A stretch of 64,000 nt of DNA from Gautieria morchelliformis. Lineage: Eukaryota; Basidiomycota; Agaricomycetes; Gomphales; Gomphaceae. Position 1 is the stretch's first letter. Each line of letters opens with the position of its first letter. The position numbers and the translations under genes are program-made. The stretch covers positions 186,001 to 250,000 of the forward strand of contig WHVA01000033.1 in NCBI GenBank assembly GCA_015179125.1, given 5' to 3'. This document shows, piece by piece, positions 17,545 through 61,444 of this stretch. Under the pieces are notes generated by a model, which saw only the letters and a program-made list of their open reading frames with translations, was not told where the DNA came from and ran no database searches.

Positions 17545-18033
17545 TGTTGGGTGCATTTATGCTCCTGCACCAAAATCAAGCATAATATGTTCAATTTATT
17601 GTGTGGTGTTTCCAATTGTTTCTCACATTGTTCTTGTACCATGCATCCATTTCTCTGCTTATTTTCGAAATTTTCCAGTCACTCCCTATCTCTCCATTCC
17701 ACTTTGTTATTTCTATTTTCACAGGCGGCTGCACCCAACGGAGTTTGAAATGACTTCGACGTGCGAGCTCTTGGGTGCTAAAGGGCCGGGTGCACGTATA
17801 TGCCTTCTGAGACAGGATTGTACTCCTCTCTCAGTGACAATAAATTCACTGAGAGAGGCGAGTAATATCTTTCATATTTACATAACAAGTTGACTGAAAA
17901 GCATGTAGTGTATTTGATTCTAGGTACTGTATTAATATATCAGTGACAATAAATTCACTGAGAGAGTGTATTTGATTCTAGCTTTCTAAGAACTCTACCG
18001 AACCTTCCCTGCCATAACACCTAGTTGCTAACA
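17545..18033 (+). mobile_element. Solo LTR, Copia-type family C1, TSD GTTCT
   Basis: The ends are TGTTGGGTGCA...CTAACA, 489 bp. The duplication GTTCT is exact (17540-17544 and 18034-18038). It is a diverged relative of the LTRs of the Copia element at 38.43-41.35 kb. It contains the X-spacer-Y-XY arrangement: X at 17832-17857, spacer 17858-17908 (begins GCGAGT, ends ATGTAG), Y at 17909-17923, and X and Y directly joined at 17941-17981. Confidence 0.85.
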
Positions 18034-19399
18034 GTTCTGACAAGCTCAGACAAAGAGATGCGAAATGTGACGCATGTCGGAAAAAGGTCAAAAAGGAGAA
18101 ACAGAGCTAGAACAAGCACAAAGACGACAAGAAGCAGGTAGTTGGATATCAACAAAGGAGGCTGTGGTGGTGCCAAGTGTTGTTTGTTTGGTTCCATACA
18201 TACTTCAGAGGGTCACATGCATCCCTTCGAGGTTTCGAACATCGGAGTTTGAAATGACATCCCGGAAAATATACGCAGACGCATAAATAATACATGCAAT
18301 CATATCTTGGCGGATGAAGCAGAGTTGGAAGACAATGAAACCATCGTGATGATTACTATAAGTCAGTCTTATTAGTAGTACAAGCAAGGATAGGATAAAC
18401 ATACCATTGTGTAGCCAGGCTGCCAGCCATGTGGATGCCGCCGACATATTACCACGGGCAGGACATTGGACGCCAGCATGCTCTACCATGGCTATGCGGC
18501 AGCCATGCCTGCTCTGTGATGGCCAGCTCATGGTACCAGATGCCGGAGATGCCCGTCCGGTGACATGACGGGCCGGGATGGACGCACGTGCCATATGTGA
18601 CCTGGTGACGTCATCACAGCGCACTTTTAGTGATGTCACTGTCAGCTGGATCTACGGTATGGTCAAATATGCATGGTGAGTCAGGTGAAGTGCCCAGCGG
18701 AAATCAACAAATGGCCGCCCTTCGAAGAGGGTTATAGTTGTCCTTTTGTTTATCGCTGGTATATTCTCGTCAAAGAGGCCTGAGCTGTCACTGGAAGCAT
18801 GTGGGAAGTGACCTGTCGAGCGCTGGCACTTAGCTCGGTCCATATTAGGGTGTTTCACGTTTGCATTTTAATGGCATTTTCGTCCAGGTTTTCGTCGGCG
18901 GTTTCGAGGCGTTTTGAAAAAAATGCCAGAAAAACGGGAATGGGAAGCCACTGGAGCCCCTTTCACGGCTTTTTTCGCCGTTTTTTTTTCACGGCATTTT
19001 TCAGGCATTAGAATGATACATGTGATTAAAAAAAGGTTTTACCAGCCTCTTATGTACTATCCGCCACTGTCCGTCTGGATGCCTAAAGCCAAGCCAACTG
19101 CCAGCTGCTACAAATCCTCCTAGTAAATCCCAACGCGTTATTCGACCCAGTTTCAAGGTCCGTAAAACCTCCGAGGATATTGGCAGTGACGAATCCACCT
19201 AACAACTCGAGGCAGAAGATAGTGATGATGGGGAGGCAGTGGAGGCTAAGAAAAAGAGGCACTCGACATCAAATGGGACTCTAATCACACATGGACTCAC
19301 TCCCTGATCCAGCTCCTCATTGACCCTCGTCGTGTCTGTCGGCGTCCTCGGTGGTGCCGAAGGCTTTCCACTGGTAGGGGATGGTAGGTCGGAGGTGTC
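18034..19399. other. Stretch without a recognised gene
   Basis: A short basic patch at 18060-18120 (K-C-D-A-C-R-K-K-V-K) looks like part of a zinc-cluster-type or similar basic protein but is isolated. The segment 18850-19020 is rich in T runs and CGTTTT-type motifs. A minus-strand Ser/Thr/Pro-rich frame at 19199-19405 runs into the LTR at 19400. No gene is called. Confidence 0.3.
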
Positions 19400-20431
19400 T
19401 GTCAAGATTGGTTTTTAGGCGTTAATATTGTGTAATAGTGAACACAGCGAATGCCCGAAATAACTTGTGTGAATAAGTATGCCGTTCGGCGAATTAGTGA
19501 ACCGATGAATGTTCACAAAACAAAGGGGTTGCCCGAATGGGGCTCGCCCTGTCTACAGTCGTAGCGAAACGGCTCGCAGCACTTGACGACGTAACGTGCA
19601 AGATACCGCGGAAGGGCTACCTAAGTTTCGACAGTCCCTTCGCTGGCGAAGGTGCTCCTTCGGAGCCCTTCGCCAACAGCACAGAAAGTAGTTCGAAGGC
19701 TAAGGTAATGAAGACGAAGTATGAGAACTCACCAGTGATGCCTAAGTCCTTGGCTGGTCGAAGATAGAAATCTTCAAGGAGAGGCTCGAGACAATGATCA
19801 CAGGGAGGTCAAGTTTGCACAAGGTGGACGACATATGATAATTGAACTGGGGAATATACATGTGAATGTAAACTACTTATATCGAATGCTCATAAGGTAT
19901 CAGCGAATAGGAAAGAGGCCGTCACAAGTCAGGGTTGGATAGGGGTGCGCAGTCATGATACTAAGGAGATGGAATAAACATACAATAGAGTGAGGAAAGA
20001 ATGCGAACATGAAACGACGGAGAGTAAAAGGGGGCGAAGGCACTTATGGACAAAACCATGTCTTGGGACCCGCATACATGCTACCCTGCATGGACTCTTC
20101 GTTTACTGGGTTGATCCCGCACGACCTATGGAAGGAACGCCCTGCGAACACACTTTGGCCATACGAACACCCAATGGGGTTGGATTAAGAAGATGATGGG
20201 GCTAATGATGAACCATCATGCTGGGTGATTGGTATCGATCATATTTGATGGCGTGCCTGCTGGCGAAATGCGCGAGTAGCGAATAGCGGTTCGGAGGATG
20301 GAGGAACAGCGAGTAGGGTAGACGTAGAGGAGGAGTGGTCGGTAGGTGCAGCGAACTCTGACGAAGATGCTAGGGAGTGACGAGGGGGAACATGGAGGTA
20401 GCGCGGTAGGAGAAATAAACCGGTCATGACA
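19400..20431 (-). mobile_element. Solo LTR, family L1, TSD GTGTC
   Basis: In plus orientation it begins TGTCAAGATTGG and ends GGTCATGACA. The duplication GTGTC is exact (19395-19399 and 20432-20436). It is about 240 bp shorter than the other L1 LTRs, so it has an internal deletion. Confidence 0.85.
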
Positions 20432-20554
20432 GTGTCCTCGTCGGAGATGTCCTCGTTGGTAGGTTAGCATGTTCTGCACGAACATTCTTTAGTGGGAGGG
20501 CTCAGACTGATTCAACTTCGAACTCGGGCTAGGCTCACGTACTAGCATGTCATT

Positions 20555-20957
20555 ATGCAGTGCACATTTGACTACTCGAAGGGCTTCGACCACATCGCCC
20601 CGCAGGCGGTTACGGCATTTTATGATGGTGATTTTCTTCAAAAGACGTCCAGGAGACAAGATCTCAAAATGGTTTCACGTTTCATGCTGACAAAGCGATC
20701 TCTCTCGAATGTGAACTCAAACAAGTTCGCATTCGAGAAAAATAGCTTCCCAAGCCGCGAAGACAAAAAGCACCTCGCATACATCTCCGGGATGTCTTTT
20801 CACAAAGTCAGCGTTTGGGTGAGTCTCTCCACAATAATCTCCCTTACTCGCTATAATCCTTGCGAACAGTTCCAAAACCGCCGCTGCCAACAAGCTTCCC
20901 ACGCCAAATCAAACCGTGCCAATGAAGGAACGTCTCGGCGACTCTGCGTGGGAGGTG
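20555..20957 (+). pseudogene. HD2-type homeodomain mating gene fragment, cut by a Ty3-like element
   Basis: The frame leads into a homeodomain whose middle reads F-E-K-N-S-F-P-S-R-E-D-K, then L-A-Y-I-S-G-M-S, then V-x-V-W. A 51-nt intron (20819-20869, GTGAGT...CAG) separates the W from F-Q-N-R-R-C, the recognition-helix core. Intron position and length are identical to the 53.65 kb copy. HD2 proteins pair with HD1 partners to form the transcription factor of the A/b mating system. About 45 nt after the intron the frame shifts (M-K-E-R-L-x-D-S-A, conserved with the other copy, is in a different frame). The gene ends at 20958 where an LTR begins. The N-terminal specificity region is missing. 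Confidence 0.7.
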
Positions 20958-23900
20958 CTGTAGACGCAGATCATGTCGAATAGAAGAAGATACGATCGTA
21001 GATCGCGTGAATACTGGTGAGATAACGCGATCACGTCTACAAGTATGAAGGACAAGACTAAGAAGGATCTGCGTCTCTCAGTGTAGTCTCCGCTACTGTA
21101 CAGCTTCTCAGATAGGGAATCCTGTATCCTCAACTACGGTGTGCTGCTGTGGGTGCACTGGCGCTAGATGCTGGGATGTGTGGGAGCTCATCCTGGCGTC
21201 TACACTCCCCCCTAAGAAAAGAGAACCAACTGTGAGAGTGGTATAGGGAAGAAAAAACGTTAGGGATTCGCTGGGTTTGTTCCCTTTGGGGCGTTGCCAT
21301 TGCCATTGTCATTTGGCTGTGTGGTTGATATACGGATTCGCCGCTGCTGCTGCTCACCTGTGGAGCCTATGACCTATGGGTTGGTATAGCTCCTCTGCTT
21401 CTTCTAGTTCAGCTTCTGACGATTCTTCTGGTAGCAGTCCTTGTTGTGCGACTTCCGATGTCTCTTGGGGCAAGAAGTTAAAGGGGAGTTCTTCTTCAGC
21501 GTCCTCTGGTATTTCCTCTAACGTTCGTAGCAGGGTGTCTTCGTGTTGTTCCGTTGTTGTGGCATTCGGTTCTTGGACTGGGTCATGTGTTCGTAGGTGG
21601 AATCTCTTGAGGCGGTTTGTGTGTATCTTTCCCATCGCTTTTCGACCTGATAGGCATTCTAAGTAATAGGAATTATTACTTCTCCCTGTGACTCTGAATG
21701 GTCCAAGCCATGGAGCTGAGAGTTTGTACTTGGCTTCTCTAGATGTGTCGAGCTTCGAGTTATGTACTAGTACGAGGTCGCCTATGTCGAAGGTTGTGGG
21801 CTTGGCCTTCCTATCGAACCACTCCTTCCTTTTTTCCTGAACGGCCTGTAAGTGTCCTCTGGTGACTTCGCGGTCTGCCTCTAAAAATGCAAATCTCGAC
21901 CCTGTGTTGAAGTCCAAGTCCATGACGTCGTCTATGTCGAATGACCCATCTATGGTACCGAACATGATGGCTTTGGGTGAGGTATTCAAGACCGGTGTTC
22001 TCCTCTTGTTCAGTAGCGAGACTGCTCTTGGCCATTTCTTCGGCCAAGCTGCTGTGATGCCCTCTGTGCGATTGGGCTGTTCAGATGCACACTCTTTCCC
22101 TAAGATTGAGAGTAGTTGTTTGTTTTCGTTCTCGATGAGGCCATTACAGTGTGGTGCATATGCCAGGGTGATCTCGTGTTCAATGCCGAACTCCTGTAAG
22201 ACTGTCGTCATGTGTTGCCCTCTGAAGTGGGATCCTCCGTCTGTAAGGAGGCGTTTCGGAGGTTGCCATTCGTGGCATATCGTTCGTAGTGCTGTCGCGG
22301 AGGCTAGGTTCGTTCCTGCTTTCTTGAGGATGACTCCCCAGACGTATCGCGTGAAAAAGTCCACGAAGATGAGCACTTCTGAGAAGCCTCCAACTCCTTT
22401 GGGGAGCTTCAGATAGTCGGCTGCAAGCATGTCGAACGGGTGTAACCGTATGATTGGTTGGAGCAAGAAATTCCGTAGGCGAGGGCCGAATTGTTGGCAG
22501 TTGGGGCATTCTGCGGGGATTTCTGTGAAATCCTTCCTTAGCTGTGGCCAATTGTAGTGTACGCGCAGCTCGAGGGTGAGGATATCTCTTGCCCAGTGTC
22601 CTATGTTTTTATGTACCTCCAGTGTTTTCGCTCGACCTTCTGTTCGTGAGAGTACCTCTACTGGGTGGGCTACTCCTGTTCTCAACCTCCAGAGTTTGTT
22701 GTCTTTGACGAAGTACTCTGCGGCTCGGCGCTTGATTGTCTCCCGTTCCCTCTCCGACGCGTCCTTCGGCAACGATAACATTAGGATCCAATTGAGTATT
22801 GCTGTGGTTCCAGGGTCCTCGTCCAACCTCGACATCAGGTCTCTGTGCTGGTCGTTTGGTGCTAGTATAGCACACTGTACCTCTTGTACTGAGTATAGAT
22901 TGTTGATGACGCCTCGTTCGTGTTCCCACCCTGGGTCTATCGGTTCCTTCTCTGGTGGTCCACGGGCTAGACCTGGGCGTGATAGACCGTCTGCTGGATT
23001 GTTCTTTCCATCTTGGTGTATGAAGTCCACGATGTCGTGTGCTAGGATTGCTTCTTTGTATCGAGCGTGGGTCGGGGGGAGGGACTTGTTCGAAACTAGG
23101 TCCTTTACTGCTTGACAGTCTGTCTTCAGAATGATTTGGTGTCCCCAGACAAACTTGTGAAACTTATCCAGAGCCCATTTTACCGCTTTCAGTTCTAGCT
23201 CGAAAGAGTGCTGCTTGTGTTCGGCTTCGGAGTTTCTTCGGGAGGCAAACACAATAGGGTGGAGGACGTCTTCTGGGGTTCCATCTGCATTGGAGGTCGG
23301 TTGGTACTGTGCGAGGTACGCAGCTAGCCCTTTAGCGCTGGCGTCCATTCCTATGATGAGTGGTCTGTCGTTCCTGATAGTGGACAGCACGGGGGCTTGT
23401 GTTAGCAGCCCTTTGAGCTGTGCAAATGCCTGGTCTTGTACGGTGGTCCATCTGCCTGCGAGTGATGTGTTGATCAGTGCCTTCTTGTACGCTCCTTTTT
23501 TCTGTTTTCTTGAAGTGTCTGTTTTGGCTACTTGGATGCCACGTATCATCTCGTATAGCGGGTCGGCGATGATTGTGAAGGCTGGCATGTATGATCGGAA
23601 GTGGCTGACGGTGCTGAGGAAGGCTAGCGTTTCGTGTGCCGTAGTAGGTGTGGGCCATTCCAATATGGCTGTGACCTTCGATAGGTCTGGGCGGATGCTG
23701 TCGGCAGAGAGTTCTACTCCAGCGCATCGTACATGTGTGCAGAACAGGGAGAGTTTCGATGGTGCTAGTACCACGTTCTTTTCTCAACACCGTTGAAAAA
23801 CCTTGGTTAACTTTTCGAACAGTTCTTCGAAGGTGTTAGACCCTTGACATATGTCGTCCATGTAGTGCTCTAAGTCCTGGCCTACCATTCCTTCGAATGC

Positions 23901-25399
23901 TTTGACCATCATCTCCAGGAAGGTGTTCGGTGCTCCTGTGAGTCCGAATGGCATTCTGACATACATGTAATATCCTAAGTCTTCTACTCTGAATGCCGTC
24001 AGTCCCCAGTCGTCCTGCCTGATGAGACACGCATGGTATCCCATCGCTAGGTCTAGCACGTTGTACAGCTTGTATCTGCTCATTTGGTGTTGTCTTCTCG
24101 TTAGATCGCCTACTGGGAACGGCGGGGCTTGCGTATGTTGTGCGCTGAAGTTATTGCACAGTCGCCACTGTGTGGGTGCTGGTGGTGGGAGGGGCCGGAC
24201 TAGTTTCTTGTCTGATGGTGCATCCGGGTGTGGTATGTCGACTCCTACTTCTTTGCACACAGCATTTGCTAGGATCTTGAGTTCTTCCAGGGACCTTGCT
24301 TGGTCGTGTCTCGGTTTTGGGGCCAAGACGATCGGGCTGACACATTGGACATCGTTGTACGGGATTCTTAGAACGATCCCTGCCTCTATGAGTTTGTGTA
24401 TGTGTTGATGTAACCATTCTCGCTGTGAGACTGTGAGTGGGCGTGACGTGTCGACCTTCGGTAGCTTGATGCCTTCCGGTATGTCGATGCGATGTTCGAT
24501 GAAGTCGATCGGTTTTACTTCACTCAATTGCAGCGCGAATATGTCTGCATATGCCTCTATTAGGTTCATTACCCGTCGTCTCTGCTCTGGTAGGAGCGTG
24601 TCGCCTAGGGTTACGCTTGCTTGGATCGTTGTTATGCGGTCGGGGTCGAATTTATCTTTCGCTGTGTCCGAGGGGCGTAACTGGTTGATGAGTTTCGCTG
24701 TGTCCGCTAGGCTCGGTAAGTCGTTCGCGGGGTCAAGGATGCTCTCTGTACTGTCGTTGGGGGTCGTCGGGGTGTCGAGGTGTGTTTGTTCTGTGTCTGG
24801 GTGTACTGACGGTGTTACTGCTAGGGTATTGGAGATCTTCGGAGGGGACTTTCGGAGCCTCAGATGTTTGAACGAGTTGGGGATGATGATTCTCTCGTCT
24901 ATTGTTTGCACTTTTAGCTCGTCTGTTGCGTAGTCGTGCACTGCAGAACATTGTCCTAGCCACGGCTTCCCAAGCAGGAGTTTGAAGGAGCCTCCTGAGT
25001 CAAGTATTTCTACTTGTATTTTTGTAGCGATCCCGTGTACGTTGATAAACAGAGTCATCCTCCCTATTGATTTCGTGACTGTCCCGTTCCCCATTATGCA
25101 TGCCAGCGGTGACGGCTCTAAGTCTCCTAGGGTCGCGTGCCATTGTCTCCAGAGGACGGAGTCTAGGGCGCAAAGTAGGCCACCATCGTCTACTGTCCCT
25201 TCCACTCGAATAGTTCCTTTGTTCTTGCCCATGATGTCTATCTTTGTTAGGAAAGGGTTTGTGTGGGAACCGTTGCTAATGGAAAAGCCTCGCGAAAAAA
25301 GGATTAAAATCGCTTTAAAACCCTGTTTTCCCAGCTGATAGTAGCTAATACACGTGGCTATTGTTGGGAGAACTCTATTCAAATATCCCTTAAATTTCC

Positions 25400-30209: not shown

Positions 30210-33075
30210 ACCGATGACGTCCAGCTCGAGCTTGTATTCCTCAGAACAGGTTGAGCGTGCGTAATTTTACCTTCCTGCCGATCTTGTGTTCAGATTGCTT
30301 CTCTATCTCAAGTTGTTTCTCTCAGCGGTGTAAGGGTGTCCAAGCGGCAGAACGTACCGGCCCAAGGTTATCTGTGTGTTGCATCCCCCAGCATCCTTGC
30401 TCACTGGGGCAGTGTTGGTCCGGCGCAACTTGGTTCCGCTCCTGCTGTCGTTGAACCCGCGCCTGCTGGGGCGTCATATGGCACTGGTTTCCAGAGGAGT
30501 GGAGGAGGGATTTGCAAAGAGGTCAGTTACCAGGCACCCCATGTTAGTTGTGGTGCTTGATTCACATTATACTGACACATACGTCGTCCCTTGTAAAGAG
30601 AGACCCTGGGACAACATCTCTACAGCATCCGATCTGATGCAAGATGCCCAAACCTATAGTATATGCAATGATACCAGTGGGGTTGTTCAATATAACCCTT
30701 TCTCCTTCATGTCCTTCAAGAAAGATTTGGCGATAAGTGGAACGGCAACTGCATAATCTCGTGAGTAGCTAGCTGTACATCTGACTCCCAAACGTCTTAA
30801 TTTAACAGTCACGGCTTATTTTCAGGTACAAGAGCTTACAGGTGAATATCTTGACAACATGGGTGCATTGCACTCTGCATCAAGACTACACGGCCTGGTA
30901 ATATCAGTCTCCTGTTGGATGTGTTTGAGGTGGGTCATTATCTTCATCGTGCTTATTCAGAGATGTTCGGTTGCTTAACTCAGCGCAGATGGATACCCTG
31001 CTTGTTACGTATCGAGATTTCCGCTAAGTCGGAACTGGAAAGGACAGCGGCTTCAACTTATAGGTTGCTCCCCCAATGAACTATCGTCCTAAGTATTTCG
31101 GAATTGAGTCGGAAGGCGGAAAGTACTGAACCAAAGGTTTGGTCGGAACTTGAGTCGGAACTGAGGCGGAAGGCAGAAGGTGGAGAGACTGAGATCTTGC
31201 TAGACTCGCTGTGCTAAGAACAGGAGATGGAGCGAAGGAAATCAAGTATCAAAGGCAATTATCTGATTTTAGAAAGAGAGACATACATGACAGGCTTTTA
31301 TACAAAGAGCTGAGACAACAGGTAATGATATGATATGGTACTAAGCAAATTCCGGAGGAAGCAGAAGTCGAGTAGACAATGTGTGGGAACTAACTATTGG
31401 GAACAATGGGACTACAAGGGGGGTTCAGGGTAAGGTAGAACAAGGGGTCGGGAAAACATATCTGACAATGAATTACAAGGGTGGCCGGATATATGGTCTT
31501 GATGGACGGTGAGGTGGGTCCAGTGGGTCCGAGTAATAGAGTCGAAAGAACAAGGAAAATGTACAAGGGGCGGAATGTCGGAAATATCGGAGGGGCGGAA
31601 TGTGTTGCGGAAATATCGGAGGGGCGGAAGGTGTGGCGGAACTGAGGGTTGAAAGTCGGAAATGAACGGTCGTAACACTGCTCCACATGGATGTGAACGT
31701 GGCACAGCTTTTGCAGGTAACACCACCTTCCCCACCGAAACAGTTTTTGATCATTCAGTATTGAAATACTTTCTTTAGGATGATGTTTTTGTAAGCTTGC
31801 CGCTGCAATATGATGGGGTGGTTATTAAACGTGTATTTTTCAGGGAGTCTCAAGTCTGCTTATGATGTGTCTTACAAATCACACCGCAGACGGGGGAGCG
31901 AATTTGCAGGTTGCATGGAGGACACTCGTGTAAACGTCTTGGATGATCTAGAGAGATGGGCTGAGGATGACACAGCTCCTAATGTCTGTTGGCTCGGTGG
32001 GATGGCAGGTATAGGAAAGTCCAGCGTTGCTGTCACCTTCAGCGAGCGAATGGACAAGAAGCTGAAGCTGGGGGCCAGTTTCTTCTGTTCCAACTCCAAC
32101 TCATGTCGTGACGCACATCTCATCGTGCCTACTATTGGATGTATGCTTGGTCGAATATCCCCCCAGATCATATCAGCGATATGTGAGGTTCTCCGAAGCA
32201 ATCCTGATGTGGCCACCAACACGTTGCTTGAACAGTTCTGCTGTCTGCTTGTTCATCCATTTCGGGACGCCAGTCATGGATCTGTGGAGAGGCTTAAAAT
32301 TGTCGTTATTGGCGCTATCAACCAATGTACCGATCAGTCGACCGTGGAATCATTGATCAAGGCAGTTCTCACCCTTGAATCAGATATTTCCCTCAAATTT
32401 CTAATTGCAGGCCGACCCGAACCCCAAATACGGGACACCTTTCTCTCATCGCTGAATGTCAAGGTCGTTCAGCTGCACGAAATCCCCAAAGACCATGTGC
32501 AGGTTGATATTCAAAGATATCTGAAGAGTTCTTTATCAAAACTAGCCATGGACAAACGAGACTGGCCACCCGATAACGACTTATCAATCCTGCTCGAACG
32601 GTTGGACAAACTATTCATTTACGCAGCAACTGCCATGCGATATATCAGTGACCCTAGATTCGACTTTAAGGAGTGCTTGCAGCAGATCAACGCGCTGGTG
32701 TTGACTCGACCTACACCGTCGCAGACTGGCCCACTCGATCAGCTCTACAACAACATTATGTCCCGAGCATTCCCTCCCAGCGTGGAGGATTGGGAGGTGT
32801 CGAGAAGAATGGATTTACTGTCGGCAGTGATGTCTTAACACACCACTATCCAAGGCCGGCATTACGTCCCTGCTCCAAATGAAAGAATCTGCGACTGACA
32901 GGGATCTCTCCCAATTTCTTTCAGTATTTGGTATTCCTTATAAAGATGATGGCCAGGTGATGATTTTTCATGCCTCATTTCATGATTTCATTGTCGATCC
33001 GAAGTGCTGTGAGGCGCACGGGGTAGATCCTTCTGAATGACACTACAAACTCACCGTCAAGTGTCTTGAAAGCTT
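30210..33075 (+). pseudogene. NACHT-domain (NLR-like) gene, interrupted and decayed
   Basis: Proposed start ATG at 30210 (M-T-S-S-S-S-L-Y) with several short introns. The conserved core lies at 31845-32838. It has a linker S-A-Y-D-V-S, then W-L-G-G-M-A-G-I-G-K-S-S-V-A (P-loop), F-F-C-S (after the P-loop), and F-L-I-A-G-R-P-E-P (a sensor-like strand), followed by helical sequence. This is the architecture of fungal STAND/NLR proteins, proposed to act in non-self recognition and cell death. After 32838 homologous sequence continues in another frame or exon (F-H-A-S-F-H-D-F-I-V-D-P near 32970, then a stop near 33040, then L-T-V-K-C-L-E-S-L-N). The N-terminal effector region is not recognised, and no C-terminal repeats remain. 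A solo LTR at 31003-31677 lies in the 5' part. The P-loop region is well kept, so decay is fairly recent. Confidence 0.6.
31003..31677 (+). mobile_element. Solo LTR, family L2, TSD CTGCT, inside the NACHT gene
   Basis: The ends are TGTTACGTATCG...GGTCGTAACA, 675 bp, with exact duplication CTGCT (30998-31002 and 31678-31682). The target was an exon or exon border, as M-D-T-L-L before it and L-H-M-D-V-N after it are both open. Confidence 0.9.
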
Positions 33076-37616: not shown

Positions 37617-40600
37617 TGTCAAGATTGGTTTTTAGGCGTTAATATCGTGTATTAGTGAACACAGCGAATGCCCGAAATAACTTGTGCGAATAAGTATGCC
37701 GTTCGGCGAATTAGTGAACCGATGAGTGTTCACGAAACAAATGGGTTGCCCAAACGGGGCTCGCCCTGTCTACAGTCGTAGCAAAACGGCTCGCAGCACT
37801 TGACGACGTAACGTGCAAGATACCGCGGAAGGGCTGTCTAAGTTTCGACGGTCCCTTCGCTGGCGAAGGTGCTCCTTCGGAGCCCTTTGCCAACAGCACA
37901 GAAAGTGGTTCGAAGGCTAAGGTAATGAAGATGAAGTATGAGAACTCACCAGTGATGCCTAAGTCCTTGGCTGGTCGAAGATAGAAATCTTCAAGGAGGG
38001 GCTCAAGACGATGATCACAGCGAGGTGAAGTTTGCACAAGATGGACGACGTATGATAATTGAACTGGGGAATATACATGTGAATGTAAACTACTTATATC
38101 GAATGCTCGTAAGGTATCAGCGAATAGGAAAGAGGCTGTCACAAGTCAGGGTTGGATAGGGGCACGCAGTCATGATACAGCATAGATGAAATAAACATAC
38201 AATAGAATGTGAGGAGAGGGGGAACATGAGACGACGGAGAGTAAAGGTGGCGAAGGCACTTATGGACAAAACCATGTCTTGGGACCCGCATACATGCTAC
38301 CCTGCACGGACTCTTGGTCTACTGGGTCGATTCCGCACGACCTATGGAAGGGATGCCCTGCGAACACATTTTGACCATACGAACGCCCAATGGGGTTGGA
38401 TTAAGAAGACGATGGGGTTAATGATGAACCTGTTGGGTGCATTGATGCTCCTGCACCAAAATCAAGCATAATATATCCAATTTGTTGTGTGCTTTCTCAA
38501 TTTCTTCTCATGTTGTTCTTGTATCATGCACCCATTTCTCTGGTTATTTTCGAAATTTTCCACTCACTCCCTATCTCTCCATTTCATCTTGTTATTCCTA
38601 CTTTCACAAGCGGCTGCACCCAGCGGAGTCTGAAATGACTTCGCGACGCGCGAGCTCTTGGGCGCTAAAGGGCCGGGTAGTAGTACATGCGCAGTGGAAC
38701 ACATTTCCCCCTCTCTCAGTGACCACTAAATTCACTGAGAGAGGCAAGTAAATTAGTCTAGTAGTCTTTGCATTTACTGACCTAGAAATCCTCTGTAGTG
38801 AATTGATTTCTAGGTAGTGTATAATATATTTAGAGTGACCACTAAATTCACTGAGAGAGTGAATTGATTTCTAGTCTATTCTTTTGAATAACAAGTCCAT
38901 ACCTACTGCCTATAATTCCTGTCCACAACACAGCGAAGAGGCAAAGATCGAAGAAATTGATGAAAATGCACCAGAGGAATATCTTGAAAAGCTGCAACCT
39001 ATTCAGGGAGTTGATGACAGACCTAGAGAAGCTGAACCGATAAGGAGAAGCGAAAGGATCCGTCAACAACAAGTGCAGCCGGCCCCATCAGGTCCCGTAA
39101 CAAGATCTCAAACCCAGAGACAAGCTGGGGCATATATGACTACGCTAGCTTACGAGGACGTTGAGGACCATAAAGAAGTTTTATTCGACCAAGAATTATC
39201 CTCCGAGATTGATGGCATCAGTAGCTATGAGTGTGCCATCAGTGCGTTTCTAACCGACGGTCAAAACAATAACAAGGCGCCGGATTTGAGTCAAATTGAA
39301 CCTAGCAATGCAGACGAAGCTCTGAATAATCCTATATGGAAGAAATCAATGGACAAAGAGTATGAGGCCCTAATCGACAAGGGAGTGTGGGAACGAGCCA
39401 AACCACCTCCTGGAGCCAATATTGTCGGTAATAAATGGGTCTACCTTTGGAAGCGTAATCCAGAAGGGAAACCAATAATGCCTAAATCGAGAATGGTCGC
39501 CCAAGGCTTCACACAGAAGTTTGGAGTCAACTATGATGAGACATACTCACCTGTTGCTCGGTTATCCTCCCTACAGATCATATGCGCCATTGCTGCTAGG
39601 AATGACTGGCCTATCCATCAAATGGACGTGGACTATGCATACCTCAATGCTACACTACCTGAACCTATTTACATGAAGCAGCCGTATGGATATGAGTCTA
39701 GAGACAAAGACGAAGTGCTACTTTTGAAGAAAGCACTCTATGGCCTCAAACAATCTGGAAGGGAATGGTACAAACGTCTAAGTGGTGAATTCCACAAATT
39801 AGGATTCACTACGTCAGCCACAGATGGGGCTGTATTTTATAGACGTGGCGGAAAGGGGCATGTGATCATTGCAACAGCTGTGGATGATCTCACCATCACA
39901 GCTGAGAATCAGTCAGTCCTGGACGAAGTCAAACGAGATCTTGCTCAGGTCTTCAGTATGAAAGATCTAGGCGAGATTCATTGGCTATTGAATCTCAAAA
40001 TCGAAAGAGACTGGCAGAAGAAAACTATTGCAATTTCACAACCTGCATACATCGAGAAGATCATCAAGAAATTCAATCTCGAAGATGCAAAGACTTATGC
40101 TACGCCCCTTGATCCAGCTGTTAAATTATCAAAAGACCAGTGTCCTTCTACAGAGAGAGGCAAGAAAGCCATGTCGAAGTTTCCATACAGGCAAGCCATA
40201 GGATCACTGATGTGAGCAGCCGTAGCCACTCGACCTGACATTGCATTTGCGGTGTCATTGCTTTCGCAATTCCTCGAAAATCCAGGTGGCACACATTGGA
40301 ATGCAGTCAAACGTGTCTTCAAATATTTGAAAGGCACGAAGCATTACAAGCTCACACTTGGAAGAAATCGAGACGGCTTGATGGGGTATTCAGATGCGGA
40401 TTGGGGTTCACAGAGTCATAGGCGTTCGTATTCGGCATACTTATTTCAGATTGATGGAGGCACTGTTTCATGGAGTTGCCAGAAACAGTCGATAGTAGCC
40501 CTCTCATCAACTGAAGCCGAATTCGTCGCCCTGACCCATGCGGGCAAAGAGGCTCTTTGGATGCGCCATTTTATTTCTGAAATATTCCAACCACTGAACA

Positions 40601-41815
40601 GACCCATCAAAATTTATTCAGACAATCAATCAGCCATTGCCATCACGTATGGCACTCAACAACACACGAGAACCAAACATTTCGACATTAGATTATATTT
40701 CCTTCGAGATATAATCAAAAATCAACAAGCCAAGCTCGTTTATTTGCCAACCGAACAAATGTTGGCAGATATCCTCACCAAAGGACTTCCTAGTCCTAGA
40801 GTGAAGATCCTCAACGAACAAATCGGAATATATTAAGCTTGAGGGGGCGTGTTGGGTGCATTGATGCTCCTGCACCAAAATCAAGCATAATATATCCAAT
40901 TTGTTGTGTGCTTTCTCAATTTCTTCTCATGTTGTTCTTGTATCATGCACCCATTTCTCTGGTTATTTTCGAAATTTTCTACTCACTCCCTATCTCTCCA
41001 TTTCATCTTGTTATTCCTACTTTCACAAGCGGCTGCACCCAGCGGAGTCTGAAATGACTTCGCGACGCGCGAGCTCTTGGGCGCTAAAGGGCCGGGTAGT
41101 AGTACATGCGCAGTGAAACAGTTTCCCCCTCTCTCAGTGACAACTAAATTCACTGAGAGAGGCAAGTAAATTAGTCTAGCATTCTTTCGATTTATTAACC
41201 TAGAAATCCTCTGTAGTGAATTGTTTTCTAGGTAGTGTATAATATATTTACAGTGACAACTAAATTCACTGAGAGAGTGAATTGTTTTCTAGTCTATTCT
41301 TTTGCGCAAGAAGTCCATTCCTACTGCCTATAATTCCTGTCCTCTACAGAACCATCATGCCGGGTGAATGGCATCGATCGTATTTGATGATGTGCCTGCT
41401 GGCGAATGATGCGAGCAGCGACTAGCCGTTCGGCGAAATGCAAGGAAGCGCGAACAGAGGTGGCCTAGTGGAGGAGAGGTTGAGGTAGAGGGCGAAGCTG
41501 AGCGAATACCGAGGAGGAGTAGCGAAAGGGAAAATGGGGATACCAAGGTGTAGGAAATACACTGGTCATGGAAATCCAACTATCAGAACACCATCAGAGG
41601 AGGGTCGAACAGCGGAGGTAGTAGACCCAGTGATGACTTGTCAAGTCAGTCCAAAACCGTTGGTCGTGCGTTTAACGGCGTGGCGGTGGTAGCGGGCGCA
41701 AATCAGCGAATATCGGTTGCCGAACATGACAATAGTGATCGGAACGAACACGGAAATGGGGTGAGAAATGTCAGGACAGAGCACCTGAGTTATGAGGAAT
41801 AAACGCGTCATGACA
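37617..41815 (-). mobile_element. Solo LTR, family L1, TSD GCCTC, split by a Copia element
   Basis: Ends TGTCAAGATTGG...CGTCATGACA in plus orientation, with exact duplication GCCTC (37612-37616 and 41816-41820). Without the nested Copia the LTR is about 1.28 kb, matching 33388-34660. It lies in the left LTR of the gag-only element. Confidence 0.9.
38431..41348 (+). mobile_element. Ty1/Copia retrotransposon, internally deleted, TSD GAACC
   Basis: 5' LTR 38431-38930 and 3' LTR 40850-41348, with exact duplication GAACC (38426-38430 and 41349-41353). A polypurine tract (TTGAGGGGGCG) precedes the 3' LTR. The internal part keeps only the pol end: an R-R-S-E-R-I-R linker, reverse transcriptase with Y-G-L-K-Q-S-G-R-E-W and a V-D-D box, and RNase H (S-D-A-D-W; L-S-S-T-E-A-E; D-N-Q-S-A). 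Gag, protease and integrase are lost. About one further break is seen. The two LTRs differ at roughly 20 of 500 sites by eye, mostly in their 3' halves. It is the youngest layer of a four-level nest. Confidence 0.9.
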
Positions 41816-46211: not shown

Positions 46212-46224
46212 AGAAATACGGATA

Positions 46225-48045: not shown

Positions 48046-48060
48046 CTAACGAAGTATATG

Positions 48061-53165: not shown

Positions 53166-53325
53166 GAAAGAGTCGGATGTAAGCTGGGATGGCTCGTAGA
53201 CAGCTGGGTAGGCGTGAACCAACGTTGTGGGAGGGTTGAGGGGGTTGTCGATGTGTGGCACGGGTGTATGCTCCTCGACCGACGTGGGAAGTTGGTATAC
53301 CGCAGTCCCCTATCGCGTGGCGTGA

Positions 53326-53963: not shown

Positions 53964-54520
53964 AGTACGTAGAACAAGGTTGAAGGAAGAGCTGAAAAGC
54001 GCCACACGTGAAGTTTTTATAGCCCCGCACGCGTATGGCGCGGCCCCTCGTGGCCCAGACTGGATTGGGATTCCGACAACTTCAAAGAAAATTCCGACAC
54101 GAGTTTAGCAGCTAAAGTACAAGAATTGAACGAGACGACCGCGAATTCAGATCATATTAACGTTAAACAACCAGCTCTAAGCCTCAGTAACAGTAAAACA
54201 GATATTATCTTTAGTGGCTTTCTTGTTCCGTGGATTGACAGTGGACAGAGCTGGATGCCGCTGAAGCAATTGATCTAGGCGGCACCATCCACAACATAGG
54301 CGATGCCGTAGAATGCAGGTTCGCTTTCGGTGCCAGAATTGTTGACTCGGATGTTTTACCCCGAGAATTAGGCGGCTTCAGCCAGCAATCAAATTGCTAC
54401 ACATAACTACATATTAATCAAAGAAAAAGCGAACGACGTGACACACGCCATAAAAATATATTTACGAGGAATCGATACTGCACTGGTCAAACGCTAAATA
54501 CTTATCCGCGGCAGACGCAC
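53964..54520 (-). promoter_or_regulatory. Promoter of the HD2 copy
   Basis: TATA box (complement of GTTTTTATA at 54013-54021) about 50 nt before the ATG. The region is closely similar to 0.88-1.72 kb but shorter. Confidence 0.55.
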
Positions 54521-54900
54521 TTCGAAGTGCGGCTTGATACAGGCACCAGACCATCCGCGCTCCTAAGACGTGGATCCTGCACCGCTACGACACAACGGAC
54601 GCTGCAGCGAGCCCAATTTCAAAGTGGGAGACAGCTGTTCAGCCTGAGACTCCAATGCGTCAACACCCACGCTGCATGCATCAATGCATGCAGGCCTGGC
54701 TCCTCAGACTCGTAGCAGACGGATCGGCCGTCGTGCTGTCGTCCCCGGACGAAACGCCGGTATCTCGAGAGTACACGAGCTCGGTGCATCGAGATCAGCC
54801 TCGAGAGAACTCTCGGTAGCTCGGTATCGGAGTATCGCCTTGACGAATACGATGGTGCGCGGGATGCGGCCATCGAGGAGACCGTTCTTCATCGCCTAGC
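54520..54900 (-). pseudogene. Repeat block A, copy 4 (left part)
   Basis: Matches 1745-2190 with an internal deletion between about 54760 and 54810. It continues the same order as at the window start: promoter, then block A. Confidence 0.55.
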
Positions 54901-55100
54901 GCTGAGCACTCCGGCCTCACCAATGCCAAATGTCATGTTTGTCACCGGTGGGCTCGGAGTGCATGTGCACGGGCAGCACGGTTGAATCGGTTGCGTCTCT
55001 CAATGACCTTGCCGAAGTTCTTGCAGTATGCGTCCAAATTTCTCCCTTCATCCGTTTGATGCTCTTTGACACTACACTCTTCATCCCCGTCGCTCTTTTG

Positions 55101-55162
55101 AACCCGCCACATGGCCGCCACTGACAATACGAAGACCAATGGTGGCGGCCATGTGGCGGGTT
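55101..55162. repeat. Perfect 21-bp inverted repeat
   Basis: The arms are at 55101-55121 and 55142-55162 (AACCCGCCACATGGCCGCCA plus C, and its exact complement), with a 20-nt loop. The flanks 54900-55550 show no gene. A small transposon or a structured RNA is possible; nothing decides between them. Confidence 0.8.
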
Positions 55163-55553
55163 GGAATTCCACTTGCCTTTGCTCTCCTTATGTCATGCTC
55201 TCCCATACCGCACATCCGTGTATATATATAGTTATGTAATAGTCATTTTGATTACACAGATACCGTATGTCAAACGACTTACATCGTAAGTGTAAGGTCT
55301 ATTTGGGTCCGCACTGTGTTTGGGTCCGCAATGCCAGTAGTGGATAGCCGAGGTTATAAGTGTGTCTCAGCGGCGAAGCCTTATCGGTACCTCCCGAGGG
55401 ATTACGGAACCTTGTATAGGTGGTGTATGAGGCCTCGTAAGGTGATATATAAGGGTCATGTATATTATGCATATTATATGTTATACACCCTTATAAGACC
55501 GTTGTAAGATCGTTGTAAGTTTTTTGCGGTTTCGCCGATGACGTTGCGCCGCA

Positions 55554-55895
55554 TCAACGGACGACGAACTGTCCACCCGTCATCTTTGCGGTACAATAAA
55601 GATGGATAGACGCAGGGCTCGTGAGCTCATGATGTACGGGAACATATAGCATATTCTTGCAAATACAGAAACGAGAAGACATCGCCGTACAACAGGAAGA
55701 AACCAGTTGATCAGAAGAGAACATGCACACATATGTAGAAACATGGCTAGCAACAGCAAGGAACTCAATCCTACGAAATAAAGACACGGGAATCCAACGC
55801 CCGTGAATAAAATCCCCAAGCCCGGTAAGTCCTTCAACCAAGGACGAAAAGGACAGAGCCAAGAGAACCTCGGGTGGCGGAGGCCACCTATCGTT
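55554..55895 (-). pseudogene. Repeat block A, copy 5 (right part)
   Basis: Matches 2330-2560 and 10800-11090, directly downstream of the HD N-terminal-like gene at 55.91 kb. The parts of block A on either side of 54.90-55.55 kb were separated by unrelated sequence. Confidence 0.5.
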
Positions 55896-55910
55896 CCCTG
55901 CGAGGTTATA

Positions 55911-56369
55911 CTACTTGGACTGAGTCCTGTTCGCACGAGCAGCTAGATGGGAACGCGTGATATCCACGCACTCTCTAGCCCGACCATCCACTCTGTCTTT
56001 GTATAATGTGTGGAGCGTGTCGAAGAACTCGGTCACAAGGTCTTCCACCGGTGTCATGCCTGGAGCTTGAGGCATGTTGGCCAGCTTCTCTACCGTAGTA
56101 CGAAACTTGGCCTCAAATTTTAGTCGAAGATAGTGCGTGTTCTGTTGATAGATGTCCGACAGGCTCTTTGCCACCTCTGTGGTCACGCCAATATCGACGA
56201 GTTGGGAATACAGCGGTCCTGGAGAATAAAAGTGGAAGTGGGAAATGTCGATTGGTGTGGTGGTCGAGGGAGTGGGATGGCTTGAGGAGGACCTCGCCTC
56301 GATTACTTTGGTTGCAACGGCATCCATCTCGCGAAGAACTTCGTTGGTTGACTTGAGAGACCCCGACAT
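55911..56369 (-). CDS. HD N-terminal-like protein, best-preserved short copy (152 aa)
   Basis: I choose the start M-S-G-S-L-K-S-T at 56369 because three other copies share it; an in-frame upstream ATG at 56408 exists but lies in poorly kept sequence. The frame is uninterrupted to the stop at 55911. Residues 1-25 form a helix (E-V-L-R-E-M-D), 26-40 a Ser/Pro linker, then P-I-D-I-S-H-F-H-F-Y, the G-V-T-T-E-V-A-K-S-L-S-D-I-Y helix, L-R-L-K-F-E-A-K-F-R, P-V-E-D-L-V-T-E-F-F-D-T-L and a basic tail. No homeodomain follows; block A does. The promoter is shared with the 47 kb copy. Likely role, if any, is binding an HD partner; this is inference. Alternatively it is the first exon of a larger HD gene, though no donor site is evident at the stop. 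Confidence 0.6.
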   Translation of the reverse strand: MSGSLKSTNEVLREMDAVATKVIEARSSSSHPTPSTTTPIDISHFHFYSPGPLYSQLVDIGVTTEVAKSLSDIYQQNTHYLRLKFEAKFRTTVEKLANMPQAPGMTPVEDLVTEFFDTLHTLYKDRVDGRARECVDITRSHLAARANRTQSK

Positions 56370-56870
56370 GGTAGAGCGAGAGCTAGGCTGAAGTAAAACC
56401 CGTAGCACGAGCAGCTTTTATTGCAAAGAGTCACTCTCCGTGTTTAACGACTATCACGGATCGAGCCGAATTGTAATCGAATCGATCTCAATTACGCTCC
56501 AAGGGCTTGAGTTCTGCCTGACATTCTTGGCAGCTAGATATCGGGGGGGACTTGGGCCGTGAATGCCGGCAAAGACTAAGAGAATTCGTGAGCCCGTCAT
56601 TGGCAGCAGCAAAGAGAAGCCCCTCCCTTCAAGTGGGACTGAATTTGAACGCCACGAACACAAGGCACTAGATATACCTTGCAGCGAGTTTCCAACGTCG
56701 ATAGCCCCTATATGGAACAGTCGTCTTAATGATACCGATCGTGGATCCCTGTAATGTTGGCGCTTTCGGGTGTGCATGAAGATTTAGTGGCTCTAAAAGA
56801 GATAAGTGGACAAAGGAGTGTCGTCAGATTACTGGCTGGCGAGCAGCTGAGTCAGCCGATCTCAGCACTA
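56370..56870 (-). promoter_or_regulatory. Upstream region of the 56 kb HD-like gene
   Basis: Shared with 47477-48045 up to the GCAGCTGAGTCAGCCGATCT run at 56846. It lacks the GAGTGCGTGACGTG motif found at 47943. Confidence 0.45.
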
Positions 56871-57877
56871 GCCAATAGACCCGTGCTTCGCACGGGTTAC
56901 ACAGGCACTTAACATAGACTGAGTATGATGGCCAATTTACTATACTCAGCGTGTGGAAACCAGCATGAGCTCGGTTGGAGCTCGGTCGAAGCCCGACCCC
57001 AAAGTCCGCAACTGAGTCCAGTGCAGGTTGGAGCTCAGACTGGGCGTCTCACGCTGCCGCGAAAAAATAATATTAGAATTAGCTATTGCATATAATTTTA
57101 GTAGATTAGCTCTATCTCTAGCTCCTACTGGGTGTCATGATTCATTTATTCTATGAACCAGACATCAACATTCAGCAAATGAACATCCCCGCTGTTGGAC
57201 CTTCAAACCTTTTGCCAAAGGATTCTTCACGGTAGGCCTTTCATATTCACTGATCCCATCATTCCTGTCAGGACCCCGGTCCGTGAAGCCATCATCCATC
57301 ATAGAACCCATCATCTGTTAAACTCCCACTCCATGAAACACCCACATGCTCAGGATACATTTGGACAGTGTGTTACGTATTGAGATTTCTGCAAGTCAGA
57401 ACTAGAAAGGACAATGCCTTCAACTTATGCACTGCACTTTGAACCAAAATACCTCCTTAAGAAATTTGAGTAAAACTCCAAATATCTTCTGAGTATGTGC
57501 CAAATATCTCCTATTGAGATATTTAGCTTATATGTGAGCCAATATTCCAAATATTATCCAAGTCTCTGCCGGGGATATATGTGGGCTTGTTGTTTTTGCT
57601 TGCTCAATTTCTATAGTAGTGTAAGTAATACACCATATACATACATAATTATATATTGCAGGCATGCACATCACGATCACCCTTGACGTGTTATTGACAC
57701 GTCACTCTTGCACAAAAAGTCCGACGTGCCGATTGCTACATTGTTCTACCGTCAACGCACATTCATGCATCCCTGCACCCTGCCATTGCAGGGACTGCAG
57801 GGACTGCAGGGGCCATTTGCTTCAGATGTCTGGCACCCGTAAGTGTCACCTCGAGGTAGACGAGGTAAACCAAGCAC
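56871..57877. other. Stretch with an L2 LTR fragment; no recognised gene
   Basis: A short hairpin CCCGTGC-TTC-GCACGGG lies near 56891-56907. A start-end fragment of an L2 LTR (TGTTACGTATTGAGATTTC) occupies about 57370-57435. An open frame near 57663-57880 ends where the chromovirus LTR begins, with no family recognised. Confidence 0.35.
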
Positions 57878-60137
57878 TGTAAGGGCAACCCTGGCTGGTT
57901 GTGGAGGTCACACTACCACACAACTGACAAGGGGAAATCCAAAGAGAAAAGTCTAAGGACCCCAATGTTAGCGATCCCGTATTATACTACGCTGTGCAGC
58001 CAGGGACAACACTTGGCACCCACCATCAACCCTGCATCCCCCTGGCTTCCCTGACCCTTGATCGACCCTTGATGCCACCTATTATGCGAGTCACTTGATT
58101 TCCGACACTGTTCCGAGAGCGGAAGTCAGAAATTGGAGTGGAACTGGAAAAGTGAATAGAACTGGTGGAAGTTCTCCCAGAAGCGGAATCATTTCCGAAA
58201 GCGGAGGTGGAGATGGAATTGGAACCAGAACCGGAGTCGGAAATGGAGTCGGAACTAGAAATGGAAAACAGGGTGTCCCCTGACATCACCCCCCCTCTAG
58301 CGTGCTGTGTCCTTGAAGCAGGGGACACGAGGGATTGAAAGGCCAGTGAACGGATTCGGCGAGGGGTGCCAGGGTGTGTCCTATAGAACTTGTGGAGTTT
58401 GTCTGGATTGGAGACATCTTGCTCTGGGACCCACGAATTCTCCTCATACCCATACCCTTCCCACTTCACGAGGAATTGGAGTCGTCCTCGTACAAACCGG
58501 CTGTCCAGGATCCGTTCTACTACATCGTGCTCTTCCCCATCTACAATTTCCGGTGGAGGTGGCAGACAAGCCTTCTGACCTGGAATTGGGTCCTCAAGTG
58601 CAGGGAGCAACTTCACTACATTGAAGATGGGGTGGAGGCAGAACATGGACATCGGAAGTCGGAGGCGGTACACATTTCGTCCAACTCTCTGCATCACTGT
58701 GAAGGGCCCAAGGTAGTGGTGGGCAAGCTTCTGCCAAGGGCGTGTGGTGCGGATGTCACTTGCATCTAGATACACCTTGTCTCCAACTTGGTACTCCGGG
58801 GCAGGAACCCGGCGTTGGTTGTAGTACCTTGCCATGTCATCCTTGGCCTTTGCAAGGGCAGACTTGGGCTTCTGAAAGGGTGGAGTCCATGCGGTCTCAG
58901 CACTCATTGACTGTCTCAAGTCAGGACTCGGCCTGGTGTGGCTCAAAGCCCATCTGCGGGTGTCGTCCGGAGTTGAGCATGAAGGGAGTCTGTTGTGTGG
59001 CGGAATGTACATGGTTGTTGTATTGGAATTCTGCCAGTGGAAGTAACTTGTCCCAGTCATCCTGCCTCTTGTTGACAAAGAGGCGGAGATATTGCTCCAG
59101 CTCCTGATTGACCCATTCTGTCTGTCCATCACCCTGTGGATGGTATGCTGTGGTGGCAGCCAGCTTCATGCCGAGCAGGCGGTAGAGCTCTGGAGTCAGT
59201 TCTGCGACAAACTGCGGACCTCGGTCGGAAATGACTTGCTTCGGGAGCCCATGCAACTTCCAGACATGCGCAAGGAACAGGTGGCCACTCCGAGGGCTGT
59301 GATCATCGTGTGCATCGGAATGAAGTGGGACACCTTGCTTACCGAGTCCACGATGTTCATGATTGCGTCGTAGCCGTGAGACTCTGGAAGTTCAACGATG
59401 AAGTCGACACTGATGGTGTCCCTGTGGGATTGTGGAATCAGGAGTGGAACAAGTTCTCTGACAGGCGGATGTCGCTGTGCTTTGGTCCGGAGACAAACAT
59501 CAGACGTCTTCACATACTGTCCAATGTAGTGGGACATCTGAGGCCACCAGTAGGTCCGAGCCACTAACTCCAGTGTATCCACCTGCCAGCATGCCCAGTG
59601 ACCCGGGTGTCATGGTGCTGGGACACAATGCGGCGGCGGAGGTCCACCCCACCTGGAACATAGACCTTACCTCTGAAGAGGAGCAGCCCATCACGTTCTG
59701 ACCACTCCGCTGCCCGCACAGACCGTGAGTGCCCTTTCTGCAGTTCCTCACCGCCTTCACCACCGATTCCTCCTTCTCTCCATTCCGGTACTGCCTCCAG
59801 ATGTCCCGGAGCATTTCCGCTTCTGCCCCAACTGCAGTCACTCCTTCGAGGGCGCAGATTGCAAAGAGCTTGGGCGGAGCAGTGTCATGTCAGCATTGTC
59901 GCCGTTTCTGCTTCCATGATCCGCACGGCGGGATAGGGCATCAGGCTTGCCCATGGTGCGGCCGGGGCGGTGGTGGAGCATGAAGTCGAACTGGGACAGG
60001 TGCAGGGACCACCATGCTTGTCGTCGGTTCAGCTTCTTAGACGTGCGGAAGTACTCAAGGTTCTTGTGGTCTGTCCAGATCTCAAGTGGGCATAGAGCAC
60101 CCTCGAGGAAGTGTCGCCACTCCTCCAGCGCTCGGAT

Positions 60138-60634
60138 TGTTGGGTGCATTGATGCTCCTGCACCAAAATCAAGCATAATATATCCAATTTGTTGTGTGGT
60201 TTCTCAATTTCTTCTCATTTTGTTCTTGTATTATGCATCCATTTCTTTGGTTATTTTCGAAATTTTCCACTCACTTCCTGTCTCTCTATTTCATTTTGTT
60301 ATTCCTACTTTCACAAGCGGCTGCACCCAGCGGAGTCTGAAATGACTTCGACGCGCAAGCTCTTGGGCGCTAAAGGGCCGGGTAGTAGTACATGCGCAGT
60401 GAAACAGTTTCCCCCTCTCTCAGTGACAACTAAATTCACTGAGAGAGGCAAGTAAATTAGTCTAGCATTCTTTCGATTTATTGACCTAGAAATCCTCTGT
60501 AGTGAATTAATTTCTAGGTAGTGTATAATATATTTAAAGTGACAACTAAATTCACTGAGAGAGTGAATTAATTTCTAGTCTATTCTTTTGAGCAAGAAGT
60601 CCATTCCTACTGCCTATAATTCCTGTCCTCTACA
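60138..60634 (+). mobile_element. Solo LTR, Copia family C1, TSD CGGAT
   Basis: 497 bp, TGTTGGGTGCA...CCTCTACA, with exact duplication CGGAT (60133-60137 and 60635-60639). Very similar to the 3' LTR at 40850-41348. X is at 60421-60447, spacer 60448-60502 (GCAAGT...CTGTAG), Y at 60503-60517, joined XY at 60538-60578. Confidence 0.9.
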
Positions 60635-60901
60635 CGGATGATTGCCAGCATATCCTTGTTGTGGATCTCATAGTTCCGCTCCACTGGACTAAGAGTCTTA
60701 GAGAAGAAGGCAATTGGATGCCACCCCCCCCATCTTCCGATGACTGCTGTGACAAGACCGCTCCGGTGGCTGTGTCGGAAGAGTCCGCCTCGACTCGATA
60801 AGGGTGAGAGTCGTCGGGAAAGACCAGGACTGGGGCAGAAGTGATCAGCTCCTTGAGTTTGTCAAAGGAGGCCTGTTCCAGCTCCCCCACCGCCATCCAA
60901 C

Positions 60902-61444
60902 TGTAGTAACTCGGTTTGAGAAAGTAGGAAGTTATATGCCAGATATGAACGATAGGACTTGCAGGAGATTAGTAAACTATTTAATGTTCTCCTCAGTGAT
61001 AGTCAACACTCGTAATATAAAGGAATGCTACCTATTTAATGTTTTACATGTTTTTTCAGTTTCATACTATGAAAGTACACTATTAAACTCACCTCCTCAG
61101 TGATAGTCAACACTGAGGAGGGGAGGCTGCGCATGGGCTTGTTTCACTCGCATATACGAAGTTCTGGCACTTAAGCGCCCTTGAGGCACTGGTGTGCCGT
61201 GCTAAGCGCCCATAGAACCTAACACGTTAGTGAACAGCTGTAGTTCAAAAAGGAAACTTGTCCACAAGCACCCACAAAGGGTCGGTTGGACAGAACATGA
61301 AAAGGAGTAGTAATACAGGCTCGAAAAAATCAAAGAAAATTGTGAAAGGCATAGAATGAATGTCAGCATAGTTTCAGGTCAAAATCGAGAGAAAGAACAA
61401 CAGAAATGTTAGGTTTGGAGTCTGGTGCACATATGCACCCAACA
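60902..61444 (-). mobile_element. Solo LTR, Copia-like family C2, TSD CCAAC
   Basis: 543 bp; on the minus strand TGTTGGGTGCATATG...GTTACTACA. Exact duplication CCAAC (60897-60901 and 61445-61449). The sequence is largely unlike C1 but has the same layout: X (61093-61114), spacer beginning GTGAGT, Y (61032-61043), joined XY (60977-61010). Confidence 0.9.

Follow-up and report, generated by a model that had tools for sequence, protein, structure and literature searches.

A 64,000-nt stretch of the genome of the basidiomycete Gautieria morchelliformis (contig WHVA01000033.1, positions 186,001 to 250,000, hereafter the window) contains Copia long terminal repeats (LTRs) in which a segment X, a spacer with intron-like ends, a segment Y and a short gap are followed by X and Y again, now joined directly. 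The two copies of each segment change in step across the genome, the repeat ends coincide with splice-like boundaries, and in two families the base at the join before the second X is hypervariable. These features make it quite probable that the elements replicate from RNA spliced inside its own R, the terminally repeated region, and that every new LTR receives a copy of this processed R. We infer the start site, the splicing and the strand transfer of this cycle from the DNA sequence.

Doubled segments in Copia LTRs

The elements are Ty1/copia LTR retrotransposons: they have an RVT_2 polymerase (match to the Copia-type reverse transcriptase PF07727, E 2.1e-66, at window 38875-40212), LTRs of about 0.5 kb running from TG to CA, and short target duplications. 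Of ten LTR pairs compared, seven have identical 5-bp flanks (L129/130, L133/134, L135/136, L137/138, L141/142, L002/003 and L004/005), and the flanks of L131/132, L145/146 and L147/148 are not identical. They differ from Ty1/copia in R, which is seemingly split by one or two introns and doubled, the second copy being in the spliced form.

Exact-repeat analysis located the order X-spacer-Y-gap-X-Y as exact internal repeats in all five window LTRs for which it had been claimed in a preliminary description, four of family C1 (subdivided here into C1a and C1b) and one of family C2. X is 26-27 nt long in C1 and 22 nt in C2, and Y is 17 nt (15 without a shared AG) and 12 nt, respectively. The C1 spacers, of 55, 55, 55 and 51 nt, begin with GCAAGT or GCGAGT and end with TGTAG, reproducing the GC-AG-like ends described earlier; the C2 spacer begins with GTGAGT and its window copy measures 49 nt by its coordinates. 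The gap between Y1 and X2 is 18-20 nt in C1a and C1b. The AA described earlier at the end of the C2 spacer is a mutation private to the window copy and not a family trait, as the position is G, giving AG, in 29 of 31 C2 copies.

Exact C1 motifs recur throughout the genome, with 1,086 matches to Y1-gap and 1316 to X2Y2, the latter including some collapsed LTRs. We parsed 131 distinct C1a, C1b and C2 LTR segments, of which 107 were complete (C1a 46, C1b 30, C2 31); three C1a loci with two labels each (L072=L129, L075=L135 and L086=L141) were counted once. The 24 segments set aside include 17 chosen forms in which Y1 directly abuts U5 (L112-L128) and the XY-gap forms L109 and L111. L110, the third XY-gap locus, is counted among the complete ones, and nothing of note alters without it. 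The C1b and C2 copies and part of the C1a copies are mostly best BLAST matches to the window copies and so biased towards similarity, while 20 C1a loci were taken in contig order from the motif listing. Just past the 5′ LTR end of L112 stands GGGTTATGGGCCCCGGAGAC, which we take to resemble the complement of the initiator transfer RNA (tRNA) anticodon arm, as in the half-tRNA priming of Drosophila copia.

The two copies change in step within LTRs, as the preliminary description had stated. The Y1 core equals the Y2 core in 54 of 54 loci (GT 21, AA 19, GA 14; shuffle mean 18.5, maximum 32), a count that joins two pattern listings and leaves out 18 of 72 readable Y2 loci that have no exact Y1-gap partner. 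Those left out include a true class mismatch (L085), a one-base deletion in Y1 (L136) and several loci never read. The 46 complete C1a LTRs have matching copies without exception at X site 7 (A/C), with one exception at Y site 7 (45 of 46) and with two at Y site 8 (44 of 46); in C1b, Y site 2 agrees in 29 of 30 LTRs. Singletons are mostly confined to one of the two copies, as expected of mutations arising after insertion. Within each of the pairs L094/L095, L097/L098 and L101/L104 the partners differ inside X and Y, with indels among the differences in the latter two, and the copies within each LTR match.

Putative introns and a proposed second splice

The interval between X1 and Y1 (intron 1) has GY..AG ends in 12/12 two-intron representatives, and the interval between the end of Y1 and that of Y2 (intron 2) has GT..AG ends in 11/12. 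All four boundaries evaluated in one-intron LTRs also fit, L107 being outside this evaluation. Overall, with anchors placed by hand using the repeat ends, 27 of 28 boundaries combine GT/GC..AG ends with a length of 48-61 nt. Of stretches of 45-62 nt drawn at random from these LTRs, 1.5% could be removed as GY..AG, and chance is a poor account of the coincidence between repeat ends and intron ends. Branch-point-like sequences, CTACTAAT or CACTAATA, were seen by eye in the gap of families G1 and G2. These intervals are candidates for removal from the RNA.

A second intron, consisting of gap, X2 and Y2, is needed because an RNA that had lost just the spacer would still contain gap-X2-Y2, and the LTR would gain one unit per cycle. 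Splicing of the spacer alone was rejected on this ground, since the LTR would grow each time; rare products of that kind are resembled by L110, which reads X-spacer-Y-gap-XY-gap-XY, and by L109 and L111, which read XY-gap-XY with intron 1 precisely gone. These three loci fit partial splicing products.

Predicted start site and join base

TATA boxes lie 32 to 34 nt before copy 1 in 8/11 families (F3, F4, F5, F6, G1, G2, G3 and the window LTR at 1392), a spacing at which transcription should start at copy 1; the box is at -36 in C1b and -42 in C2, and none was found before copy 1 in C1a. The X copies become identical at the A of CTC|A or no more than three bases upstream of it. Together these features point to a transcription start at X1, or at E1, the corresponding segment of the simpler families described below. 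The DNA shows two R-like copies, the first of which carries the predicted start.

In C1a and C2 no site of the X1-Y2 region has a higher entropy than the base before X2, which is the most variable. In C1a it is T19 G12 C9 A5 with one gap (n=46), and over 100 listed loci T44 C33 G16 A7, while X1 is preceded by C in 46/46 C1a, 30/30 C1b and 31/31 C2 LTRs. Fourteen LTRs that are otherwise identical from X1 to Y2 have C4 T4 G3 A3 at this site, some of them being both LTRs of one element. A variable base at the join is what would be expected if strong-stop complementary DNA (cDNA) ended in nucleotides that were non-templated or derived from the cap.

In the proposed cycle, transcription would begin at the A of X1 (or E1). 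Removal of intron 1 (the spacer) and intron 2 (gap, X2 and Y2) from the 5′ LTR copy of the RNA would leave an RNA starting X-Y-U5; in the simple families a single intron (gap and E2) would be removed to give E-U5. The minus-strand strong-stop cDNA would then be fully homologous only to X2-Y2 (or E2) and U5 of the unspliced 3′ LTR, where it would anneal at the 3′ end of the RNA and be extended. The new LTR would combine U3-X1-intron 1-Y1-gap from the 3′ end of the RNA with X-Y-U5 from its spliced 5′ end, so that each cycle would renew X2 and Y2 from X1 and Y1 and keep the copies matched. The start at X1, 5′ splicing, strand transfer and unspliced 3′ end of the mechanism first put forward are retained here, favoured by the TATA spacing, the variable join and the other families; the spacer as sole intron is given up.

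Other Copia families

We surveyed 20 Copia 3′ ends adjoining RVT_2 matches, out of 150 listed, with a detector that required exact repeats and that strongly mismatched LTRs could escape. The two-intron layout was present in 11 (L094-L099 and L101-L105, of which L105 is C1a) and a one-intron layout, E1-GTAT/GTAC..-E2-U5, in six (L089-L093 and L107); L108 has a single E only. Four more families with the two-intron layout, each with its own X and Y, and three with the one-intron layout were recognised in this way; the labels F3-F7 and G1-G3 are our own. The one-intron families appear to show the core of the scheme, the second splice, alone. Neither layout was seen in the stretch fetched for L100 and L106, which belong to another Copia type. 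Their LTR is of the TGTTATTGGAGG type, with direct repeats of a TCGAGTCGAGGCGCA motif.

Stems beside the donors

Stems whose upstream arm is missing from the mature 5′ end may, as a weaker addition to the proposed cycle, restrain splicing of the 3′ copy; this arm would be U3 before the start site for donor 1 and intron-1 sequence for donor 2. In eight two-intron-type representatives, U3 before the start prolongs the X stem as far as the first donor base or beyond, as in L104, where GTCTCACCTC can pair with GAG|GTGAGAC; in F3 the pairing is only CCTC/GAGG. The stem of one-intron families ends three or four exon bases before the donor. For donor 2, intron 1 pairs with the end of Y1 beside it in C1a, F3 (L095), F4 and F6, and weakly in F5.

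When U3 arms and donor-1 regions were permuted among 11 families (hairpin 1), 0/20,000 permutations paired as well as the real combination with both choices of representative, and a family's own partner was better than the mean of the others in 9/11. For intron 1 and its own Y1/donor 2 (hairpin 2, seven families), 9/5,040 permutations were as good (p 0.0018) and the own partner was better in 5/7. For F3 and F6 these figures come from the copies that pair better; with other copies of these two families, hairpin 2 gave 36/5,040 (p 0.0071), the own partner being better in 6/7. Several results speak against a role for the stems. Computed accessibility of donor 1 is lower in the 3′ copy in 10/17 representatives and in 1/5 one-intron ones, and that of donor 2 (n=12) is lower in seven, equal in one and higher in four. 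No hairpin 2 is formed by C1b, C2 or L094, and that of L099 is weak; shuffle tests of hairpin 1 in single families were mostly not significant. On these pairing models, the stems may account for splicing being confined to the 5′ copy.

Features in the window

The positions of the repeated segments and predicted introns are collected in Table 1.

Table 1 Repeat segments and putative introns of Copia LTRs, in window positions.
Feature	Positions	Strand	Basis and remarks
C1b LTR (17545-18033) X1	17833..17857	+	Exact repeat with X2; TATA at -36; RNA predicted to begin at or close to 17833, in the context CTCTCTC|A
C1b intron 1 (GCGAGT..TGTAG, 51 nt)	17858..17908	+	Repeat boundaries
C1b Y1	17909..17923	+	Exact repeat with Y2
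C1b intron 2 (GTACTG..CTAG, 58 nt)	17924..17981	+	Gap 17924-17941, X2 17942-17966, Y2 17967-17981
C1a LTR (38431-38930) X1	38718..38743	+	Exact repeat
C1a LTR 38431-38930 intron 1 (GCAAGT..TGTAG, 55 nt)	38744..38798	+	ACTGAC inside, branch-point-like by eye
C1a LTR 38431-38930 Y1	38799..38813	+	Exact repeat
C1a LTR 38431-38930 intron 2 (GTAGTG..CTAG, 61 nt)	38814..38874	+	Gap 38814-38833, X2 38834-38859, Y2 38860-38874
C1a LTR (40850-41348) X1	41136..41161	+	Exact repeat
C1a LTR 40850-41348 intron 1 (55 nt)	41162..41216	+	Repeat boundaries
C1a LTR 40850-41348 Y1	41217..41231	+	Exact repeat
C1a LTR 40850-41348 intron 2 (61 nt)	41232..41292	+	Gap 41232-41251, X2 41252-41277, Y2 41278-41292
C1a LTR (60138-60634) X1	60422..60447	+	Exact repeat
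C1a LTR 60138-60634 intron 1 (55 nt)	60448..60502	+	Repeat boundaries
C1a LTR 60138-60634 Y1	60503..60517	+	Exact repeat
C1a LTR 60138-60634 intron 2 (61 nt)	60518..60578	+	Gap 60518-60537, X2 60538-60563, Y2 60564-60578
C2 LTR (60902-61444) X1	61093..61114	-	Exact repeat
C2 intron 1 (GTGAGT.., 49 nt)	61044..61092	-	Acceptor AG reads AA in window copy
C2 Y1	61032..61043	-	Exact repeat
C2 intron 2 (GTAGCA..ATAG)	60977..61031	-	Gap 61031-61011, X2 61010-60989, Y2 60988-60977; same boundary scored in sister copy L045
Further-family LTR from 1392 (to about 1655)	1531..1623	+	X1 1531-1552, intron 1 1553-1609 (GTACGC..TGTGTAG), Y 1610-1623; TATA at -33; read by eye

In the LTR at 1392, Y runs straight into a U5-like CTACTGCG, the start of which resembles that of the U5 of L099, and no gap, X2 or Y2 was seen in the reading by eye. 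This LTR would be either a form that lacks intron 2 or one that has collapsed. Elsewhere in the window, an open reading frame at 31795-32835 has an NPHP3_N domain and 73% identity to a Gautieria morchelliformis protein.

Discussion

Several observations count against replication from an R-spliced RNA. The families are related, so that agreement between them is only partly independent. In C1b the base before X2 lacks the variability seen elsewhere (29 C, 1 T), and in the seven LTR pairs with matching target duplications it is the same in six, differing in L129/L130, where it is one of only two differing sites. L085 has Y1 and Y2 of different classes, L103 a one-base difference in Y, and L097 no GT at donor 2. 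Among the one-intron LTRs, E1 equals E2 in only two of six (L090 and L092), the copies of L089, L091, L093 and L107 differing at one or two sites; because of these four, the in-step evidence rests on the two-intron families. An exon-skipped X|U5 junction, which is not expected from repeat recombination, gave no matches with up to one mismatch allowed. Collapsed LTRs comprise 62 Y1|U5 forms and 68 with X-Y directly after CTCTCT, two of the latter being XY-gap loci. All 68 have C before X and so look not to have been made by cDNA ends landing on X1, which makes transfer of spliced cDNA to X1 an unlikely origin of the X-Y-only LTRs. Tandem units of 116 bp gave 12 matches and mean that the repeats must also slip or recombine. 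Slippage would account for the collapsed forms equally well. The 116-bp match spacing at G000 C245:146672-146938, C233 and C571 suggests LTRs with extra tandem X-spacer-Y-gap units.

In one alternative, a spliced cDNA end made X2-Y2 only once, and gene conversion or reverse-transcriptase slippage between the short repeats has kept the copies alike since then, with no splicing in each cycle. The tandem units and the LTRs with collapsed X1/X2 or Y1/Y2 show that slippage or recombination between X copies does happen. However, repeat exchange deletes or adds units, and rewriting a joined X-Y from the separated X1-spacer-Y1 would require separate conversion of X and of Y. A single origin also predicts neither a random base exactly before X2 in otherwise identical copies nor GT..AG at both introns in nearly all representatives, and we regard it as unlikely. 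If the LTR were an ordinary one with its RNA start at X2 and X1-spacer-Y1 were a duplication within U3, it would have the hypervariable base of C1a and C2 in the right place, as the usual join at the cDNA end. Yet in 8/11 families the TATA box lies 32-34 nt before copy 1, which places it some 80-145 nt before copy 2 in those that have one, and no process in that model holds Y1 equal to Y2; its probability is accordingly low. Least credible, and very improbable, is that both copies are binding sites alike through the same selection. The X hairpin form is kept across the two-intron families, as constraint would have it, but X and Y vary between and within families, indels included, and yet match within most LTRs, whereas selection by one factor would conserve the sequence and not make it co-vary.

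Replication through a packaged, R-spliced template, with the 3′ copy held unspliced by stems that depend on upstream sequence, is a fuller proposal for this fungal Copia group, and we lean towards it with some reserve. In human T-cell leukaemia virus type 1, bovine leukaemia virus and the foamy viruses a splice donor likewise lies in R, downstream of the start site and before U5; in these viruses the spliced RNAs serve as messages, the genome is unspliced and R is not known to be doubled in a spliced form. Non-templated nucleotides are added at the strong-stop end in Ty1 and retroviruses, giving a random base at the strand-transfer join as here, whereas in the Gautieria elements that base marks an internal second copy and not the U3-R border at the start. 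Our literature search found no paper on end additions in Ty1, and no LTR of the kind described here was among the matches listed for open-licence literature on introns in LTRs or R. The barley Copia element BARE also has two RNA fates, one of them spliced, and only its unspliced RNA carries R and is packaged (PMC3735527). The same paper states that retrotransposons must avoid reverse transcription of spliced RNA (PMC3735527). By comparison with that account of BARE, the spliced 5′ end would itself be the template in Gautieria.

Reverse transcription of spliced RNA is expected to erase introns; the elements described here, if the proposed cycle is true, keep them by carrying both forms of R. 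Renewal of one R form from the other would amount to a novel way for LTR elements to replicate, in which spliceosomal introns are maintained through reverse transcription. The DNA of such LTRs would also preserve a natural record of where transcripts start and are spliced, and would offer a test case for how one RNA can be spliced at only one of its ends.

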